This document shows, piece by piece, positions 14,308 through 21,452 of a stretch of 44,433 nt of DNA. The stretch comes from an uncultured Flavobacteriales bacterium. GTDB lineage: Bacteria; Bacteroidota; Bacteroidia; Flavobacteriales_E; Vicingaceae. Made by a program: the position numbers and the translations under genes. Below the pieces are notes generated by a model that saw only the letters and a list, made by a program, of their open reading frames with translations, ran no database searches and was not told where the DNA came from. The first letter of the stretch is position 1. Each line of letters opens with the position of its first letter. The stretch lies in NCBI GenBank assembly GCA_913056345.1, contig CAJXMH010000024.1, positions 1 through 44,433 on the forward strand. Reading direction: 5' to 3'.

Positions 14308-15237
14308 ATGTACAAATCCACACTAAAGCGAATATCAACCTTAAGCAAACTAAGCTTTAGCATTTTGATTTCAGCTCTTTTGTTTGCTTGTGCTGAAGGC
14401 AATAATCAAGCACAAGAACAAACGGAGGAAAAAAGCGAGGTAGAAGAACCCAAAAAAGAGAAGGAATCTAAACTCATTGAAATTGACGGTCAAGTATTCA
14501 GCATCCCTTCTCCTATTCAAACAGCATTTTTGCTTAAAGAAGTAGGAACAGAATACCAGTCAAATTTATTGAATCCTGCAAAAAAGGCAGCAGGCTACAC
14601 TACTACTTACGATAAAGCCTTGGCCTTGGGGGTTTATGGCGCTGACCTAGGATATGCTACTATTTTCGACCAAACCCAAGATGCAATCTCCTACCTAGCC
14701 GTAAGTAAAAAAATGGCTGGCGAATTAGGCATCACAGGGGTTTTCAATGAAGAAACCGTTAAACGTTTCGAATCGAATCTTGGGAATCAAGATTCTTTAT
14801 TAGCGCTTGTTTCAGATGGTTTTAAATCAACTGATAGATACCTAAAAAGCAATCAGCAGAATGATGTAGGTGTAGCAATTTTAGCAGGCGGTTGGATTGA
14901 AACACTGCACTTCGCTACCGCTTTAGCAACTGATTACCAAGATGAAAAACTAAAGGCTAGAATAGGCGAACAAAAGATTACCATCAAAAACCTGGTAAAC
15001 CTACTTGCTCCATACAGCGATGGAAATGAAAAGATTGCAGGTCTTACCAACTCGCTTAATGAACTGAAAGACCTTTACGCTAATGTTGATTTTAGTTATA
15101 CTTATGTAGAACCAACTACCAATGAGGAAACCAAAACCACGGTTATCAATAGTAAGTCTGAAGTAAAAATGAGCGAGCAACAACTAACTGACATAAGCAA
15201 TAAAATCAACGAAATTAGAACGAGCATCATCAACTAA
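14308..15237 (+). CDS. Conserved lipoprotein of unknown function
   Basis: A 309-residue protein with a basic N-terminus, hydrophobic core and lipobox LFAC (Cys28). A highly charged linker (QEQTEEKSEVEEPKKEKE, about 35-54) would hold the folded domain away from the membrane. The rest is a largely helical domain with no catalytic motif I recognise; GYTTTYDKALALGVYGADLGYA (about 91-112) is the most striking conserved-looking block. The next gene starts 14 nt after its stop codon, so the two probably form an operon. A TATCTTTA element at 14258-14265 (one mismatch to TAnnTTTG) could be its promoter. Confidence 0.75.
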   Translation: MYKSTLKRISTLSKLSFSILISALLFACAEGNNQAQEQTEEKSEVEEPKKEKESKLIEIDGQVFSIPSPIQTAFLLKEVGTEYQSNLLNPAKKAAGYTTTYDKALALGVYGADLGYATIFDQTQDAISYLAVSKKMAGELGITGVFNEETVKRFESNLGNQDSLLALVSDGFKSTDRYLKSNQQNDVGVAILAGGWIETLHFATALATDYQDEKLKARIGEQKITIKNLVNLLAPYSDGNEKIAGLTNSLNELKDLYANVDFSYTYVEPTTNEETKTTVINSKSEVKMSEQQLTDISNKINEIRTSIIN

Positions 15238-15251
15238 GACCAAAGAAGAGC

Positions 15252-15677
15252 ATGAAGAAATTATTAACCCTTTTCAGTTTAGTCGCATTTGCCTTTGTAG
15301 CCCAAATTAATACTGCGCATGCCCAATGTGATACCATTGCTACAATTTGTGAGCAAAACTTCACTTCAGAGTATTTGTCAGACGGACAAGAATACAGAGC
15401 ATTATTGATCCAAGAGCAAACTGCGGAATTCAATTTGACCCTATACGGAGGTAGCACCTATCGTTTTGGTGCCTGCAGCGGTTTAGAAGATGGTAATCTG
15501 ATCTTTAGGGTTTATGATCAAGAACGTAACGAGATCTTCTCCAATCAAGATCACGCACTTTCACCTTATTGGGACTTTGAAGTAAATTCTACCCTAGATG
15601 TGATTGTAGAAGCTAACTTAAATTTGGATAAAGTCAGCTCGGGCTGCGCTGTGCTTTTAGTCGGATTCAAGCCATAG
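15252..15677 (+). CDS. Small secreted protein of unknown function
   Basis: A 141-residue protein with a clear signal peptide (MKKLLTLFSLVAFAFVAQ, ending near AHAQC). The mature part has four cysteines (CDTIATIC near the start, then ACSG and SGCAV), a predominance of beta-type residues and the motif GGSTYRFGACSG. It resembles small periplasmic beta-sandwich proteins, but I recognise no named family. The first mature residues QC place a cysteine directly after AHAQ; the lipobox is poor, so a soluble periplasmic product is more likely than a lipoprotein. It is second in a two-gene unit with the lipoprotein upstream, closed by the terminator at 15706-15732. Confidence 0.7.
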   Translation: MKKLLTLFSLVAFAFVAQINTAHAQCDTIATICEQNFTSEYLSDGQEYRALLIQEQTAEFNLTLYGGSTYRFGACSGLEDGNLIFRVYDQERNEIFSNQDHALSPYWDFEVNSTLDVIVEANLNLDKVSSGCAVLLVGFKP

Positions 15678-15770: not shown

Positions 15771-18700
15771 ATGAGCGAAAGAATTCTCAAGGCCTTAATG
15801 CAATTATTTGCCATTGTGGCCAATGTAGGTAGAGATGACTCGAATAGCCGAGAGTTTGTAAGACAGTTCCTAGATGAGCAGCTCAATAAAGAGCTCGTTA
15901 ACGAATACTTGGTAGTATATGACAAATACTACGATGAACAAAACAAAAAACGGGAAGGCTTAAAAGCTAGAAAGCGAACCTCTCTAAATTCAGTTAAGGT
16001 TTTAAAAATCTGCATGGAAATCAACAAGGAGTTGACTCAAAAGCAGAAGATCTACGTTTTGGTTCAATTGGTAGAATTTATTTACCAGAACAATAACGAT
16101 ACGGACCAAGCAATAGAATTCGTAGAAACGGTTGCTGATTCCTTTAACATTAGCAGAGAAGAATACGTTCTGATCAACGACTTTATTAGTGCCAACAAAG
16201 AAGAGTTACCTAAAACAACCAACCTTCTACTCATTAATGAGAACGAAGAGAAAAGACAAGGAGAGCACTTTCATATCCAAGCTTTAGGTTTAAGTGGAGA
16301 AGCAAGGGTTTTATTCTTGAGTGCTGTGAACATGATGTTCTTAAAGTACATCGGCACTACAGAACTGCAGCTAAATGGCCAACTGATCAAGCCAGAGAAA
16401 AGTTACGTACTTAACCAAGGATCTTCGCTTCGTGGTTCTAAAGTTGCACCGATCTATTACAGCGATATTATCAACCGCTTCTTGTCTGATACAGGAAAAG
16501 AAAAGACCTCCTTTACAGTTGATAACATTACCTACCAATTCAAGAATGGCAACATAGGCTTACATCCTATGACCCTTGAGGAAGAATCGGGTAATTTAAT
16601 TGGCATTATGGGAGCCAGTGGGGCAGGAAAATCTACTTTGCTCAATGTTTTAAACGGTAACTATCAGCCCACTACTGGATCTGTAAAAATCAACAGTCAC
16701 GATATTCACCAGGCTGAGAACAAAGAGGTAATTGAAGGCGTGATCGGCTACGTTTCTCAAGATGATTTGCTGATTGAGGAACTAACCGTTTTTCAGAATA
16801 TTTTTTACAATGCAAAATTATGCTTTGGGGATTTAAGTGATAAACAAATCATTCGGCTCACATTCAAAGTCTTGCAAAGCTTGGGTTTATTCGAGATCAA
16901 AGATTTAAAAGTTGGTAGCCCTTTAGACAAAACCATCAGTGGTGGACAAAGAAAACGGGTAAACATCGCCTTGGAGTTAATACGTGAGCCCTCAGTATTG
17001 TTTGTTGATGAGCCAACCTCAGGACTATCTTCTCGAGATTCTGAAAACATCATGGACTTGCTCAAAGAGCTCACCTTAAGAGGGAAGTTGATCTTTGTAG
17101 TTATCCACCAACCTTCATCCGAGATTTTTAAAATGTTTGACAAACTCATCATTTTAGACACCGGAGGTTATTTGATCTACAATGGAAATCCTGTGGATGC
17201 GATTATTTACTTTAAGCAGATGGTGCAGCAAGCCAACGCAGTTGAAAGTGAATGCCCCACATGTGGTAACGTTAATCCTGAGCAGATTTTCAACATTATT
17301 GAATCAAAGATATTAGACGAATACGGGAACCAGACAGATAAACGTAAAATTCCTCCTACGGATTGGTACAAAAAATACCAAGAACACCTAGAAAGTGAAG
17401 CGCAGGATGAAGTTGAGGTTAACACCAATCCGCCTGAAGCTAACCTAAAGATTCCCAATCCATGGAAGCAGTTTAGTGTCTTTATTAAACGAGATGTACT
17501 TTCTAAGTTGACCAACAAACAGTACCTCTTGATTAACTTTCTAGAGGCGCCCATTTTAGGTTTTATCCTCTCATTCATTATCAAGTATTCCAATACCGAT
17601 GAGGCCACCCAAGTTGGCTATGTCTTTAGAGAAAACCAAAACTTGATCGCGTACATTTTTATGAGCGTAATAGTTGCCCTATTTCTTGGCCTTACTGTGA
17701 GTGCAGAAGAAATAATCAGGGACCGAAAGATCTTAAAAAGAGAGAAATTCCTCAACCTAAGTCGGGGTAGTTATTTGTTCTCCAAGATCTTCATTATGTT
17801 CTCTGTTTCTGCTATTCAAATCCTCACATTCGTGCTGGTAGGCAATACCATTTTAGAGATTAAAGGCATGTATTTTGATTATTGGCTAATCCTCTTTTCT
17901 ACCGCTTGTTTCGCCAATATGCTTGGTCTTAATATTTCATCAAGCTTCGACTCCGCTGTAACCATTTATATTCTGATCCCTTTCTTAATCATCCCGCAGC
18001 TGATCTTAAGTGGAGTAATCGTAAAATTTGAAAAGTTAAATCCTGCTATTACGGTGCAAAAGAAAGTGCCTTTTGCAGGAGAGATCATGGCCTCTAAGTG
18101 GGCTTTTGAGGCTTTAACGGTTAATCAGTATAAGAACAACCAGTTTAACAAACAATTCTTTTACATTGACAAAGACATTAAAACTGCAAATTTCCGCAAG
18201 AACTTTTGGCTTAGTAGACTTCAAGATAAGGTTAACTTTTTAGAAAGAAGGCTAGACCAAAAGAAGGACGAAGAGGAGCTAAAAGCTGCAATTAGCTTGA
18301 TCAAAACTGAGATCGTAAAAGAAAATCAACGAAATCTTGAAATCCAATTCGGAAGTGTTGAAGAATTAAGTGGAGAGCTTAATGAAGAGTTGATTGGTGA
18401 TCTATCTTTCTATTTAGACGACTTGAATGACTATTACTTGAAGCAATACAAGCGTTTTAATGATAAAAAAGACCAATTACTCATTAAGCTTAATGAGACA
18501 GATGAGGATAAAGAAGCTTTCATAAAGCTCAAAAATGATTACACGAACGAATCTTTAGAGAATTTGGTGACCAATAAAAATGATCTCATTAAGATCATAG
18601 AAGTGGATAATGAACTCATTCAAAGGGCTAACCCGATCTTTAAAGATCCTGTCGGATTTAGAGCTCACTTTTTAGCTCCTTCTAAAAAGCTGTTTGGAAC

Positions 18701-18833
18701 TAACATCACCACTTTCTCAGCCAATCTAATGGTCTTATGGTTGTTTTCGATAGGCTTAGCGATCACTTTATACTATGATGGTCTCAGGAAGCTTCTGTCC
18801 TTTCTAGGAGAGCTATTCAAGCGAAAAAAATAG
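15771..18833 (+). CDS. ABC transporter, fused ATPase and ABC-2/ABCG-like permease with extra N-terminal domains
   Basis: A 1020-residue half-transporter. Residues 1-150 are helical and acidic and resemble a TerB-like domain; 165-245 are a separate small domain that looks partly beta-rich. The ATPase has Walker A GASGAGKST (281-289), signature SGGQ (390-393), Walker B LFVDEPTSG (410-418) and the H-loop His446. A CPTC pair lies at 495-498. The permease part has five hydrophobic segments between about 584 and 752 and a sixth at 984-1003, with a long charged, coiled-coil-prone insert (about 800-950) before the last one. The ATPase-first order is ABCG-like. Cargo is unknown; export is likely. It stands alone, facing the siaB-siaC pair across a shared terminator. 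Confidence 0.88.
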   Translation: MSERILKALMQLFAIVANVGRDDSNSREFVRQFLDEQLNKELVNEYLVVYDKYYDEQNKKREGLKARKRTSLNSVKVLKICMEINKELTQKQKIYVLVQLVEFIYQNNNDTDQAIEFVETVADSFNISREEYVLINDFISANKEELPKTTNLLLINENEEKRQGEHFHIQALGLSGEARVLFLSAVNMMFLKYIGTTELQLNGQLIKPEKSYVLNQGSSLRGSKVAPIYYSDIINRFLSDTGKEKTSFTVDNITYQFKNGNIGLHPMTLEEESGNLIGIMGASGAGKSTLLNVLNGNYQPTTGSVKINSHDIHQAENKEVIEGVIGYVSQDDLLIEELTVFQNIFYNAKLCFGDLSDKQIIRLTFKVLQSLGLFEIKDLKVGSPLDKTISGGQRKRVNIALELIREPSVLFVDEPTSGLSSRDSENIMDLLKELTLRGKLIFVVIHQPSSEIFKMFDKLIILDTGGYLIYNGNPVDAIIYFKQMVQQANAVESECPTCGNVNPEQIFNIIESKILDEYGNQTDKRKIPPTDWYKKYQEHLESEAQDEVEVNTNPPEANLKIPNPWKQFSVFIKRDVLSKLTNKQYLLINFLEAPILGFILSFIIKYSNTDEATQVGYVFRENQNLIAYIFMSVIVALFLGLTVSAEEIIRDRKILKREKFLNLSRGSYLFSKIFIMFSVSAIQILTFVLVGNTILEIKGMYFDYWLILFSTACFANMLGLNISSSFDSAVTIYILIPFLIIPQLILSGVIVKFEKLNPAITVQKKVPFAGEIMASKWAFEALTVNQYKNNQFNKQFFYIDKDIKTANFRKNFWLSRLQDKVNFLERRLDQKKDEEELKAAISLIKTEIVKENQRNLEIQFGSVEELSGELNEELIGDLSFYLDDLNDYYLKQYKRFNDKKDQLLIKLNETDEDKEAFIKLKNDYTNESLENLVTNKNDLIKIIEVDNELIQRANPIFKDPVGFRAHFLAPSKKLFGTNITTFSANLMVLWLFSIGLAITLYYDGLRKLLSFLGELFKRKK

Positions 18834-18847
18834 TAAACTATTGAGCA

Positions 18848-18884
18848 TAAAAAAGCCCGCAATATTTCTATTGCAGGCTTTAAA
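18848..18884. terminator. Bidirectional terminator between the ABC transporter and siaC
   Basis: A 12-bp stem with one mismatch: AAAGCCCGCAAT (18852-18863) pairs with ATTGCAGGCTTT (18870-18881) around a 6-nt loop. An A-run on the left and T-rich sequence on the right suit termination of both converging transcripts. Confidence 0.85.
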
Positions 18885-18901: not shown

Positions 18902-19282
18902 TTATTCCTCGATTTCGATCATTTTAAATGGAATGTTGATGATGGCCTGGTAATCTTCACCAGCTTCAAGCATGTCTTCATCATCTTCTTCGTAGTGCCA
19001 ATTTATCGTCACATCGCTTCCATCACTATTGATTTTTTCTAGCTTCTTGAATACATCTAAAATACACTTTGAAGAGCTTGTATTGAAATATTCTAATACG
19101 ATATCCACTTTAGTTGCCTCCTTAGGACTAGCAGAATATTCTTCCAGCAGATCCACTAAAGGCTTGTAGAATTCAATTGAATTCTCCGGGATTGATCTTC
19201 CTTGAATCAACAATTTACCTTCCTCAGGATTGAACTTGATGGTTGGTGTTTTGGGACTACCTTCTATGGTTAAATTTTCCAT
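18902..19282 (-). CDS. siaC: SiaC-family regulatory phosphoprotein (DUF1987)
   Basis: A 126-residue protein carrying the DUF1987/SiaC pattern: IQGRSIPENSIEFYKPL (26-42) and LEYFNTSSSK (63-72). In Pseudomonas aeruginosa, SiaC is phosphorylated on a threonine by SiaB and dephosphorylated by the PP2C phosphatase SiaA; unmodified SiaC activates the diguanylate cyclase SiaD. By my alignment the acceptor corresponds to Thr68 here, in the NTSS motif. It starts 12 nt after siaB, so the two form an operon. Neither SiaA nor SiaD is adjacent, so the output in this organism is unknown. The C-terminus is acidic (EEDDEDMLEAGEDY). Confidence 0.87.
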   Translation of the reverse strand: MENLTIEGSPKTPTIKFNPEEGKLLIQGRSIPENSIEFYKPLVDLLEEYSASPKEATKVDIVLEYFNTSSSKCILDVFKKLEKINSDGSDVTINWHYEEDDEDMLEAGEDYQAIINIPFKMIEIEE

Positions 19283-19294
19283 GATTACGGTTGT

Positions 19295-19837
19295 TTACTG
19301 TGCTATTTTTATGTTTAAACTATAAAAGGAATGCTTGTCATCTATCTTTTGGAAATCGTACTCCAATTTTTGTCCTGACTTTCTTGCAATGTCGATCATT
19401 CCGAGACCTCCGCCTCCCTTCTCTGACATCATTCCATTATTTAATACTTCTTTGTAGTGTGCCTTAAGCTCATCCTTATCCATCTGGTTGATCTTGTCTA
19501 GACGTGCTTTTAGACTGTCGGCATTATCATTTTTAATGTAGTTACCAGTAAAGATGTTGTAATTATCCCCATCTTTCCCTACCATAAAAATTACCGTACT
19601 GTAGCCATTGGAATCATCTTTTTGTTTGTCTAAATGATGATATAAGTTTTGCAAAGCTTCTACTAAAATATTGTAAACCTTCTTCTTAATTCTTGAGGGC
19701 TCTTCTAGTTTCTCCATTTTTGACTCCATGATCTGCAATACTGAAGTCAGTAATTCAGAGCTTACATTGCCCTTAAAGGAAAGCATGATGTTTTCATGCT
19801 CCATTTTATTGTAGAAATCAAAAATATTTATCTCCAT
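19295..19837 (-). CDS. siaB: SiaB-family protein kinase (GHKL fold)
   Basis: A 180-residue kinase related to the GHKL ATPase fold. An N-box-like ILVEALQNLYHH (57-68, with Glu60 and Asn64) and a G-box-like KGGGGLGMIDIARKSG (140-155) are both present, so ATP binding looks intact. In the characterised Sia system this kinase phosphorylates SiaC on threonine. The gene is first in the two-gene operon with siaC. The 140-nt upstream region is AT-rich and shared with the divergent methyltransferase gene; I found no convincing -7 element for siaB. Anti-sigma-factor kinases have a similar fold, but the neighbouring SiaC homologue supports this call. Confidence 0.85.
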   Translation of the reverse strand: MEINIFDFYNKMEHENIMLSFKGNVSSELLTSVLQIMESKMEKLEEPSRIKKKVYNILVEALQNLYHHLDKQKDDSNGYSTVIFMVGKDGDNYNIFTGNYIKNDNADSLKARLDKINQMDKDELKAHYKEVLNNGMMSEKGGGGLGMIDIARKSGQKLEYDFQKIDDKHSFYSLNIKIAQ

Positions 19838-19947: not shown

Positions 19948-19997
19948 GCGTTCGCAACATTTTCAAAGAAGTCAGTTATGCCTAATTTCGCGAACGC
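19948..19997. repeat. Inverted repeat GCGTTCGC / GCGAACGC
   Basis: Perfect 8-bp arms at 19948-19955 and 19990-19997 with a 34-nt spacer, just before the methyltransferase gene. A possible -7 element TAATTTCG (19983-19990, one mismatch) overlaps the right arm, so the repeat could be an operator. It is not followed by a T-run. Confidence 0.5.
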
Positions 19998-20001
19998 TCT
20001 A

Positions 20002-20745
20002 ATGAAAAAGTTCAAAGAAAATTGGTTTAAGGAGTGGTTTGACTCTGATTATTACCACCAGCTCTACGCTCATCGAGATTATGAAGAGGCAGAGGAGTTC
20101 ATTAGTGCACTTATGCGTTACCTCAATATAGAAACACAATGTTATGTGCTTGATCTAGCTTGCGGGAAAGGACGACACGCCGTGCACTTAAATGAATTAG
20201 GCTATAATGTACTAGGCATAGACCTCAGTAAGGAAAGTATTCAAGAAGCCAAAAAGCTTGAGTCTAAAAACTTAGAATTTCGCCAAGGCGACATGCGCGA
20301 GCTAGATCTCGATGCTGAAGTAGACCTTGTGCTCAATTTGTTTACCAGTTTTGGCTATTTCAGCAGCGAAGAAGAAGACCAAAAAGCAATCAGCTCAATG
20401 TCTGATGCTTTGAAGAAAAATGGGCTACTAGTGATTGATTACCTCAACATCCATAAAGTATTGGAAAAACTACCAACGAAAGAGCTAGTAAAGCGTAAAG
20501 GGGTTGATTTCAATATTAGCAAGCACACTGAGCACGGTTTTATTGTTAAAGACATTGAGTTCAATGCTAATCAAGTAGCACACCATTACCAAGAGTTTGT
20601 AAAATGCTTGGATTTAAATGATTTTGAAAATTACCTGCATCATGGAAAGTTCAAAATCAAAGAGGTTTTTGGAAACTACCAATTGGAGCACTTTAATAAA
20701 GCGCATTCCGACCGACTTATTATAATTGCACAAAAAGAGGGCTAA
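20002..20745 (+). CDS. Class I SAM-dependent methyltransferase
   Basis: About 247 residues. Motif I is VLDLACGKGRHAVHL, followed by the acidic second strand LGIDLSKES and then GDMREL. These are typical of small-molecule or lipid methyltransferases of the type 11/25 group; the substrate cannot be told. I chose the ATG at 20002 (MKKFKENWF) because an ATG at 19978 would place the inverted repeat and a TAATTTCG promoter-like motif inside the gene, but the longer form (255 residues) is possible. The ZIP transporter gene follows after 2 nt, so the two are co-transcribed. Confidence 0.82.
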   Translation: MKKFKENWFKEWFDSDYYHQLYAHRDYEEAEEFISALMRYLNIETQCYVLDLACGKGRHAVHLNELGYNVLGIDLSKESIQEAKKLESKNLEFRQGDMRELDLDAEVDLVLNLFTSFGYFSSEEEDQKAISSMSDALKKNGLLVIDYLNIHKVLEKLPTKELVKRKGVDFNISKHTEHGFIVKDIEFNANQVAHHYQEFVKCLDLNDFENYLHHGKFKIKEVFGNYQLEHFNKAHSDRLIIIAQKEG

Positions 20746-20747
20746 AT

Positions 20748-21452
20748 ATGGCATACATCAGCATGTTTATTGTAGCACTTCTTGGTGCAGTTCTAATTTA
20801 CCTAAGAGGTTATCTTGAAAAATGGATCAAACCTGCCTTGGCTTTTAGTGGAGCCTATTTGCTTGCTATTTGCCTTTTGCACCTGATTCCTGAACTTTTT
20901 GAAAATAACTTAGATCATCATAAGCTTGGGATCTTTATTTTACTTGGCTTTTTCCTGCAGCTTGTACTCGATTATTTTTCGGGTGGGATCGAACACGGAC
21001 ACACACACATTGACCAAAATCAATTGGGCAAATTTCCCTTTTTGGTTTTCCTTAGTTTGTGTTTGCATGCCTTACTAGAGGCGTTGCCGCTTAACCACCT
21101 AAACCCCTCTTCTGAAATAGGTTCTTACCTAGCAGGATTACTCATGCACAAAATTCCTATTTCATTTATCTTGGTATCTGTTTTTATGGCCTACAAGATC
21201 CCGAAGGTGAAAATAATTGCAGCTGTAATCATTTTTGCTACTATGGCTCCAATTGGCATACAGCTAGGTGATATTATTGGACATGAAAGCGCTTTCTTCC
21301 AACCGCTTATCGCTTTATCGATTGGAATAATTCTGCACCTTTCTACTACCATTTTATTAGAGAGTAATGAGAACCACAGCATTCAATTAAAGAAATTTTT
21401 GCCCCTAATTATTGGTTTCTTGCTAGCTCTGCTTAGTGAAGGGCTTCACTAG
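20748..21452 (+). CDS. ZIP-family divalent metal transporter
   Basis: A 234-residue inner-membrane protein with about eight hydrophobic segments. Metal-site motifs of the ZIP family are visible: HLIPELF in the early segments, the histidine-rich loop GGIEHGHTHID, HALLEALPLN in the fourth segment and MHKIPISFIL in the fifth. ZIP proteins import zinc, iron or manganese into the cytoplasm; specificity is not clear. It is the second gene of an operon with the methyltransferase and ends directly against the mazG stop codon (no intervening base). Confidence 0.88.
   Translation: MAYISMFIVALLGAVLIYLRGYLEKWIKPALAFSGAYLLAICLLHLIPELFENNLDHHKLGIFILLGFFLQLVLDYFSGGIEHGHTHIDQNQLGKFPFLVFLSLCLHALLEALPLNHLNPSSEIGSYLAGLLMHKIPISFILVSVFMAYKIPKVKIIAAVIIFATMAPIGIQLGDIIGHESAFFQPLIALSIGIILHLSTTILLESNENHSIQLKKFLPLIIGFLLALLSEGLH

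Follow-up and report, generated by a model that had tools for sequence, protein, structure and literature searches.

A SiaB-SiaC kinase/acceptor pair facing a TerB-FHA-ABCG exporter, a putative output of a SiaABC-type switch in a Flavobacteriales bacterium

Introduction

The Sia switch of Pseudomonas controls the messenger c-di-GMP, and its phosphoacceptor SiaC is known as an activator of a diguanylate cyclase. The DNA analyzed here (the window, a stretch of 44,433 nucleotides from an uncultured Flavobacteriales bacterium) carries siaB and siaC opposite a gene for an ABC transporter, which raises the question of what such a pair controls. The original prediction, made from the letters of the window, saw an intact kinase and acceptor with neither SiaA nor SiaD adjacent and offered the facing transporter as a candidate output. 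On balance, we find it somewhat probable that a SiaABC switch gates the neighboring exporter rather than a cyclase.

The kinase and its acceptor

Both open reading frames of the pair (Table 1) are intact, lie where the original prediction placed them and are separated by 12 bp. SiaC scores 146.9 bits against PF09345 (cut-off 24.5) and SiaB 149.2 bits against PF19788 (cut-off 26.6), and SiaB also passes the NCBIfam model SiaB_fam_kinase (NF038262; 172 bits, cut-off 85). With the P. aeruginosa proteins as their sole significant relatives in the PDB by sequence (6kko/6k4f for SiaC, E = 1.7e-20; 6kko_A for SiaB, E = 8.9e-17), the assignment to a SiaB-like kinase and a SiaC-like protein is upheld. 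The equivalog models are failed by both, NF038264 for P. aeruginosa-type SiaB with 103.4 bits (cut-off 225) and NF038265 by SiaC with 96 bits (cut-off 150). Judged from its sequence, the SiaB of the window belongs to the same family as P. aeruginosa SiaB and is another equivalog. The two proteins are weakly similar to the Slr1658/Slr1659 superfamilies (NCBIfam NF047703, NF047705; 28.0 and 17.6 bits), far below the cut-offs of 100 bits of those models.

TABLE 1. Positions of the features of the window.
Feature	Coordinates	Strand	Evidence or remark
siaB, SiaB-family (DUF6272) protein kinase, 180 aa	19295..19837	-	PF19788, NF038262, 6kko_A
siaC, SiaC (DUF1987) phosphoacceptor, 126 aa	18902..19282	-	PF09345, PaSiaC match
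13-bp hairpin and T-run, in the gap separating siaC from the convergent ABC gene	18852..18881	-	fold statistics
ABCG-like exporter, 1020 aa, candidate switch output	15771..18833	+	ABC_tran, ABC2_membrane
TerB-like helical domain, exporter residues 1-145	15771..16205	+	AlphaFold model
FHA-like beta-sandwich, exporter residues about 146-242	16206..16496	+	structure comparison of model
P141, small protein, signal-peptide-like start (by reading)	15252..15677	+	exporter-linked
LP309, putative lipoprotein	14308..15237	+	lipobox-like Cys28

The alignment of SiaC with its P. aeruginosa counterpart is ungapped and sets NTSS over NTSS, so that Thr68 (codon 19079-19081), as had been proposed, falls on the residue for which the available text of PMC7647112 reports phosphorylation in P. 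aeruginosa. Of 106 distinct SiaC sequences, 85 carry Thr at this acceptor position, 12 carry Ser, and 9 carry Leu, Ile or Val. The motifs of SiaB comprise E60, Q63 and N64, G98-N99 and a GGGLG loop, which we take to be an N-box-like Glu/Asn motif and a glycine loop; E60, N64, N99 and G146 are identical in all 87 distinct aligned SiaB sequences and in P. aeruginosa SiaB.

The hairpin between siaC and the convergent ABC gene has a fold z of -3.47, and none of 200 shuffles was equally stable. It probably terminates siaBC, and perhaps serves as a terminator from both sides.

Phosphatases and cyclases

The idea of a switch without SiaA holds for the neighborhood in the window, where Pfam searches of eight neighboring open reading frames, the pair included, found no SpoIIE or GGDEF gene beside siaBC. 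For the genome as a whole it fails, since 11 SiaA-type phosphatases are encoded away from siaBC; in several relatives siaA lies upstream of the pair. The genome (2.92 Mb, 99.66% complete) encodes three SiaC, two SiaB and 12 SpoIIE proteins (13 rows, one gene being in two pieces). Scored against the PP2C domain of P. aeruginosa SiaA, eleven of the 12 reach 92-148 bits and the twelfth 11.9. A PDB search with one of the 11 retrieved SiaA at E = 5.3e-39, and the same search with the odd twelfth gave no SiaA match at E 0.01. The equivalents of SiaA D457, D474, G477, D600, G601 and D653, active-site residues as named in the available text of PMC7647112, are invariant in all 11 (mapped by eye). The domains found in the SpoIIE proteins are HAMP, 7TMR-DISM, propeller repeats, receiver, PAS, TPR and one of the LuxR type, and one protein (L021) consists of a SpoIIE domain only.

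Two of the SpoIIE proteins are large and carry propeller-type repeats (L022:6300-10118, G000:C44; L019:7792-11676, G000:C2, where G000 is the genome of the window). They resemble each other by reading, and the repeats of the first also look nearly identical to one another. Another phosphatase (L026:1292-3940) combines TPR repeats with a C-terminal LuxR-type DNA-binding domain and may also bind DNA.

The prediction that SiaD is missing is borne out: the genome gave no GGDEF match in a search that was positive in 8 of 14 control genomes, and a complete siaABCD set elsewhere in the genome was rejected on this ground. As far as sequence tells, the full SiaABCD system is not present here, there being no SiaD. 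Among 60 relatives (own genome included) SiaC occurs in 51, SiaB in 50, SpoIIE in 56 and GGDEF in 3, leaving 48 of the 51 SiaC-positive relatives with no GGDEF match. All three GGDEF carriers are SiaC-positive and fragmented assemblies (230, 520, and 530 contigs), and contamination is a possible source of the domain there. Within the order, SiaC was found in each of the 36 genomes searched, in 1 to 12 copies.

The same pattern extends to a sample of 198 genomes of the phylum, 13 of which encode SiaC. SiaA-type hits above 250 bits occur in exactly these 13, one of which has an additional match at 108.2 bits, and the highest score among the remaining 185 is 95.8 bits; as 12 candidates were scored in each candidate-rich genome, a SiaA-type gene could in principle be missed in a candidate-rich SiaC-negative genome. 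By Fisher's test, co-occurrence of SiaC and SiaA-type phosphatases reaches 1.3e-20 when genomes are counted (198 genomes) and 5.4e-8 when families are (7 of 40, the total being taken from the sample numbering), values to be read with the caveat that related genomes are not independent. GGDEF domains were found in 108 of the 198 genomes and in none of the five SiaC-positive genomes of the same class as the window (G000, G045, G049, G146, G186). Outside the class, SiaC occurs in eight genomes: five of these show a single weak GGDEF match apiece and three show 8-9, and in two of the latter three (L152, L153) a GGDEF gene directly follows siaA-siaB-siaC, the order known from Pseudomonas.

At 15 positions at or around the Pseudomonas SiaD contacts, 65 of the 106 distinct SiaC sequences have identical residues. 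This surface thus appears strongly constrained, despite the lack of a GGDEF match in nearly all SiaC-positive relatives. The SiaC of the window differs from that of P. aeruginosa at 10 of 14 SiaD-contact positions, and the SiaC of two GGDEF-linked relatives also differs at 8 of the 14. Such differences are therefore not diagnostic, and we dropped them as a sign of a new SiaC partner.

Gene neighborhood of siaC

In 38 close loci, siaB is always followed by siaC, and the specific exporter of the window lies in the flanks of four only (L028 and L029, whole; L040 and L044, cut by the contig end). Its reading as a chance neighbor, suggested by these four, was reversed by a wider sample, to which 56 genomes, 48 of them from the class, each contributed their best siaC locus. 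Counted within 750 bp of siaC, the exporter is present in 8 of 32 genomes of the own family, 10 of 16 others of the class and none of 8 outside it. Accordingly, examination of the siaC flanks found no exporter nearby in 30 of the 48 class genomes, including 24 of the 32 own-family genomes. The count took 32 of 40 own-family genomes, leaving out eight of these and G256, and most own-family loci had flanks of 1.5 kb. Ordinary ABC proteins of the close loci (21-28% identity) and hits of 45-67 bits in L088, L152 and L153 had been dropped beforehand; the specific exporter scores 766 bits or more.

A further count of neighbors, made with no genes chosen beforehand, drew on a single locus per family in 15 class families (176 genes lying within 7 kb, with unequal flanks). 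After siaB, the most recurrent neighbors of siaC are the exporter and the lipoprotein, tied at 9 of 15 families, followed by the small protein (7), an unnamed 280-aa gene (6), a ZIP transporter (5) and a methyltransferase (4). SiaA appears in 5 of 15 by this gene clustering, which is an undercount since families f9 and f47 also carry an upstream siaA. The neighborhood comparison that the original prediction proposed as a check thus finds a recurrent association of SiaC with the transporter, which gains support as a candidate output; it lies near siaC in nine families and is absent from the examined siaC flanks in six.

In most linked families the exporter and siaC are convergent, and this order could be one inherited synteny. 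The siaA gene lies upstream, with a convergent ABC gene, in f47, f52, f57, and f58 (L172-L175); in f48 (L169) siaC faces the exporter and no siaB was found at the locus. Clearly different orders are seen in two families only: siaA-siaB-siaC-ABC-lipoprotein in one direction in f9 (L155-L157, three genomes), and lipoprotein-small protein-siaB-siaC facing the ABC gene in f42 (L167). The small protein of these families is faint, with 17 bits in L155, no match in L156 and L157 and a weak 27 bits in f42. Directly behind siaC, the slot that holds a GGDEF gene in two outside-class genomes holds the exporter in f9.

In the window itself the exporter and siaBC genes are convergent and therefore not co-transcribed. 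Given this arrangement and the probable terminator between them, any link would be one between proteins rather than through shared transcription.

Three further arrangements are recorded here. In f48 (L169:5126-7232) siaC stands between a methyltransferase gene and the exporter gene, and the SiaB matches of that genome are on other contigs. In six class families an unnamed gene of 270-280 aa (e.g., L173:4301-5119), with no Pfam match, stands upstream of siaB and runs in its direction. Beyond the class, siaC precedes an open reading frame of roughly 80 aa and then a multi-AAA+ protein (L163:2893-6963; L165:3679-6861), the latter being another candidate output.

The exporter and its companions

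The exporter has the ATPase (residues 264-417) before the ABC-2 permease (residues 567-787) in one chain, as placed by Pfam, a layout that identifies its sequence as that of an ABCG-like half transporter. CDR1 and ABCG chains are among its best PDB matches, as are ABCB chains, and in whole-protein alignment it is 43-80% identical to eight relatives.

Its first 245 residues matched no Pfam family, the FHA model being absent from the families that passed E 0.001, and a sequence search of the N-terminus returned only the MEK1 FHA domain, below threshold (E = 0.46). An AlphaFold model of the N-terminus, built from nine sequences (mean pLDDT 83.7), predicts two folds, one TerB-like and one FHA-like. 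For the helical part the best matches are a Nostoc tellurite-resistance protein and PG1108 (2ou3, Z 10.0, rmsd 4.9, 136 residues aligned, the query being larger than the TerB-like part; 2h5n, Z 10.0, rmsd 3.4, 114 aligned), and this Z is lower than the value of about 13 under which the tool advises caution for helical bundles. For the beta-sandwich, FHA is named in 34 of the titles of the best 50 structure matches, and 14 other titles are of proteins that we take to be FHA carriers; Z reaches a middling 8.0 (5yyz, rmsd 2.6, 78 aligned), and FHA-2 of Rv1747 is among the matches listed. Foldseek likewise puts FHA domains on top (its first five rows have a probability of 0.99-1.00); the best E is 1.1e-3, and none reaches 0.001.

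FHA domains bind phosphothreonine, so a partner phosphorylated on a threonine is attractive for this exporter. Among FHA domains a phosphothreonine-contact motif is recognized, and the Asn-Gly loop of MEK1 is not kept in the FHA-like domain in the only alignment at hand, the sub-threshold one. Since this loop seems lost, SiaC may be bound differently by the domain, or not at all.

Within the TerB-like domain (window 15972-16004) lies a conserved stretch, KRTS(L/V)NSVKVL, in which K68, S71, and S74 are invariant in 17 sequences. It starts in a low-confidence loop of the AlphaFold model and is perhaps a contact or phosphorylation site.

The lipobox-like Cys28 of LP309 is invariant in 17 sequences. 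The model of this protein is mostly helical (mean pLDDT 74.8) and gave no clear fold match, the best Z, 7.4, being of a size that common helical arrangements also give; a profile search returned nothing significant. P141 matched no Pfam family.

Proposed mechanism and alternatives

Because no diguanylate cyclase was found, the exporter module is the most likely output, and we lean toward reading the pair in the window, kinase and acceptor, as the core of a SiaABC-type partner switch. SiaB would keep SiaC phosphorylated on Thr68. A stimulus would activate one of the many SiaA-type PP2C phosphatases, which have different sensor domains and are encoded elsewhere, and these would dephosphorylate SiaC. 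SiaC would then change its partner and, in one phosphorylation state, dock on the cytoplasmic N-terminal module of the exporter, opening or closing export. The output would comprise the TerB-FHA-ABCG exporter, the lipoprotein and the small secreted protein. The kinase/phosphatase half follows the chemistry described for Pseudomonas (PMC7278518; for SiaC also the available text of PMC8457831), and the putative contact between SiaC and the exporter is proposed from gene order and domain type. For the class Bacteroidia in general, we put forward only tentatively, as a proposal that may well prove wrong, that the switch has traded its cyclase for an exporter, that SiaC directly gates a TerB-FHA-ABCG transporter, that many sensor phosphatases feed few acceptors, and that a phospho-blind SiaC paralog adds a LytS/LytTR branch.

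The switch might also work on an unlinked target, such as a histidine kinase or some other coiled-coil protein, with the exporter a neighbor by synteny. The convergent order shared by most linked families and the class genomes with no exporter near siaC speak for this, as do the linkage of a SiaC paralog to a LytS/LytTR pair and the binding of SiaC to the coiled-coil stalk of SiaD, described in the accessible part of PMC8457831. We nevertheless regard it as rather unlikely: two families keep the linkage in different orders (L155-L157 and L167), L169 keeps siaC and the exporter without siaB, and the exporter and lipoprotein head the list of recurrent neighbors after siaB in a count for which genes were not pre-chosen.

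FHA and TerB modules serve partner binding in signaling in either direction, and the linkage in 9 of 15 class families would equally be expected if the exporter module were an input that senses transport or the state of the envelope and passes this on to SiaB or SiaC. Such a role appears improbable, as the sensor phosphatases already provide inputs and the exporter of f9 occupies the slot of the GGDEF gene of the two outside-class genomes. A divergent methyltransferase-ZIP transporter pair (19978-21452) is a very improbable target, for although 33 of the 38 close loci have the methyltransferase upstream of siaB (4 of them with another gene between), this linkage, in a single order and in few class families (methyltransferase 4 of 15, ZIP 5 of 15), fits inherited synteny.

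Returning to the exporter as output, the system shares with P. aeruginosa SiaABCD the SiaB kinase, Thr68 of SiaC in NTSS and the SiaA-type PP2C phosphatases. It differs in that no GGDEF was found in the genome, siaA is not adjacent, 11 SiaA-type phosphatases stand against two SiaB and three SiaC, and an exporter module lies beside siaC. A second parallel is Rv1747 of M. tuberculosis (PMC3908365, available text), an ABC transporter that carries two FHA domains and shares an operon with its cognate Ser/Thr kinase, PknF. Both cases have a one-chain ABC exporter with an FHA-type fold and an adjoining Ser/Thr kinase gene. In contrast to PknF, which according to that text phosphorylates the transporter itself, SiaB would act on SiaC; the exporter here has one FHA-like and one TerB-like domain, and the kinase is of another family. 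The partner switches HptB-HptR-HsbA/HsbD and BgrSTUWV/BgrR share the STAS-type output carrier, and their outputs are diguanylate cyclases, as given in the accessible part of PMC8457831. The same part of that paper (eLife) suggests modulation of adjacent proteins as a general role of the DUF1987 family.

Among the matches listed in a search of open-access literature, titles and abstract beginnings mention neither a SiaABC switch in Bacteroidota nor an ABC transporter linked to SiaC. The kinase and acceptor are members of known families, and the proposed exporter output is putatively new. This lineage retains the kinase, the acceptor and many phosphatases, with no cyclase detected, and the exporter is a specific candidate for an alternative effector; the switch may have been rewired from c-di-GMP to export control. 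If so, partner switches would gate membrane export directly, and the ratio of many phosphatases to few acceptors would give a role to the many SpoIIE sensor proteins that these bacteria encode.

SiaC paralogs and tandem SiaB proteins

The other SiaC proteins of the genome differ at the acceptor motif. One (on contig C12) has NSAS and its own SiaB alongside. In the other (L015:9684-10097; G000:C22:24699-25052) Leu replaces Thr68, and its gene lies directly behind those of a LytS-type histidine kinase and a LytTR regulator. Of the nine SiaC sequences with a hydrophobic residue (Leu, Ile or Val) at position 68, eight adjoin a LytS/LytTR pair, the exception being L132. Further paralogs directly follow an MsrA gene (L139, L149, L150; NTHS motif) or an acyl-CoA dehydrogenase gene (L134, L151; NTSS motif). 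On the kinase side, L159:4720-5814 and frames of about 345-390 aa from the SiaB search among relatives have two SiaB domains in tandem.
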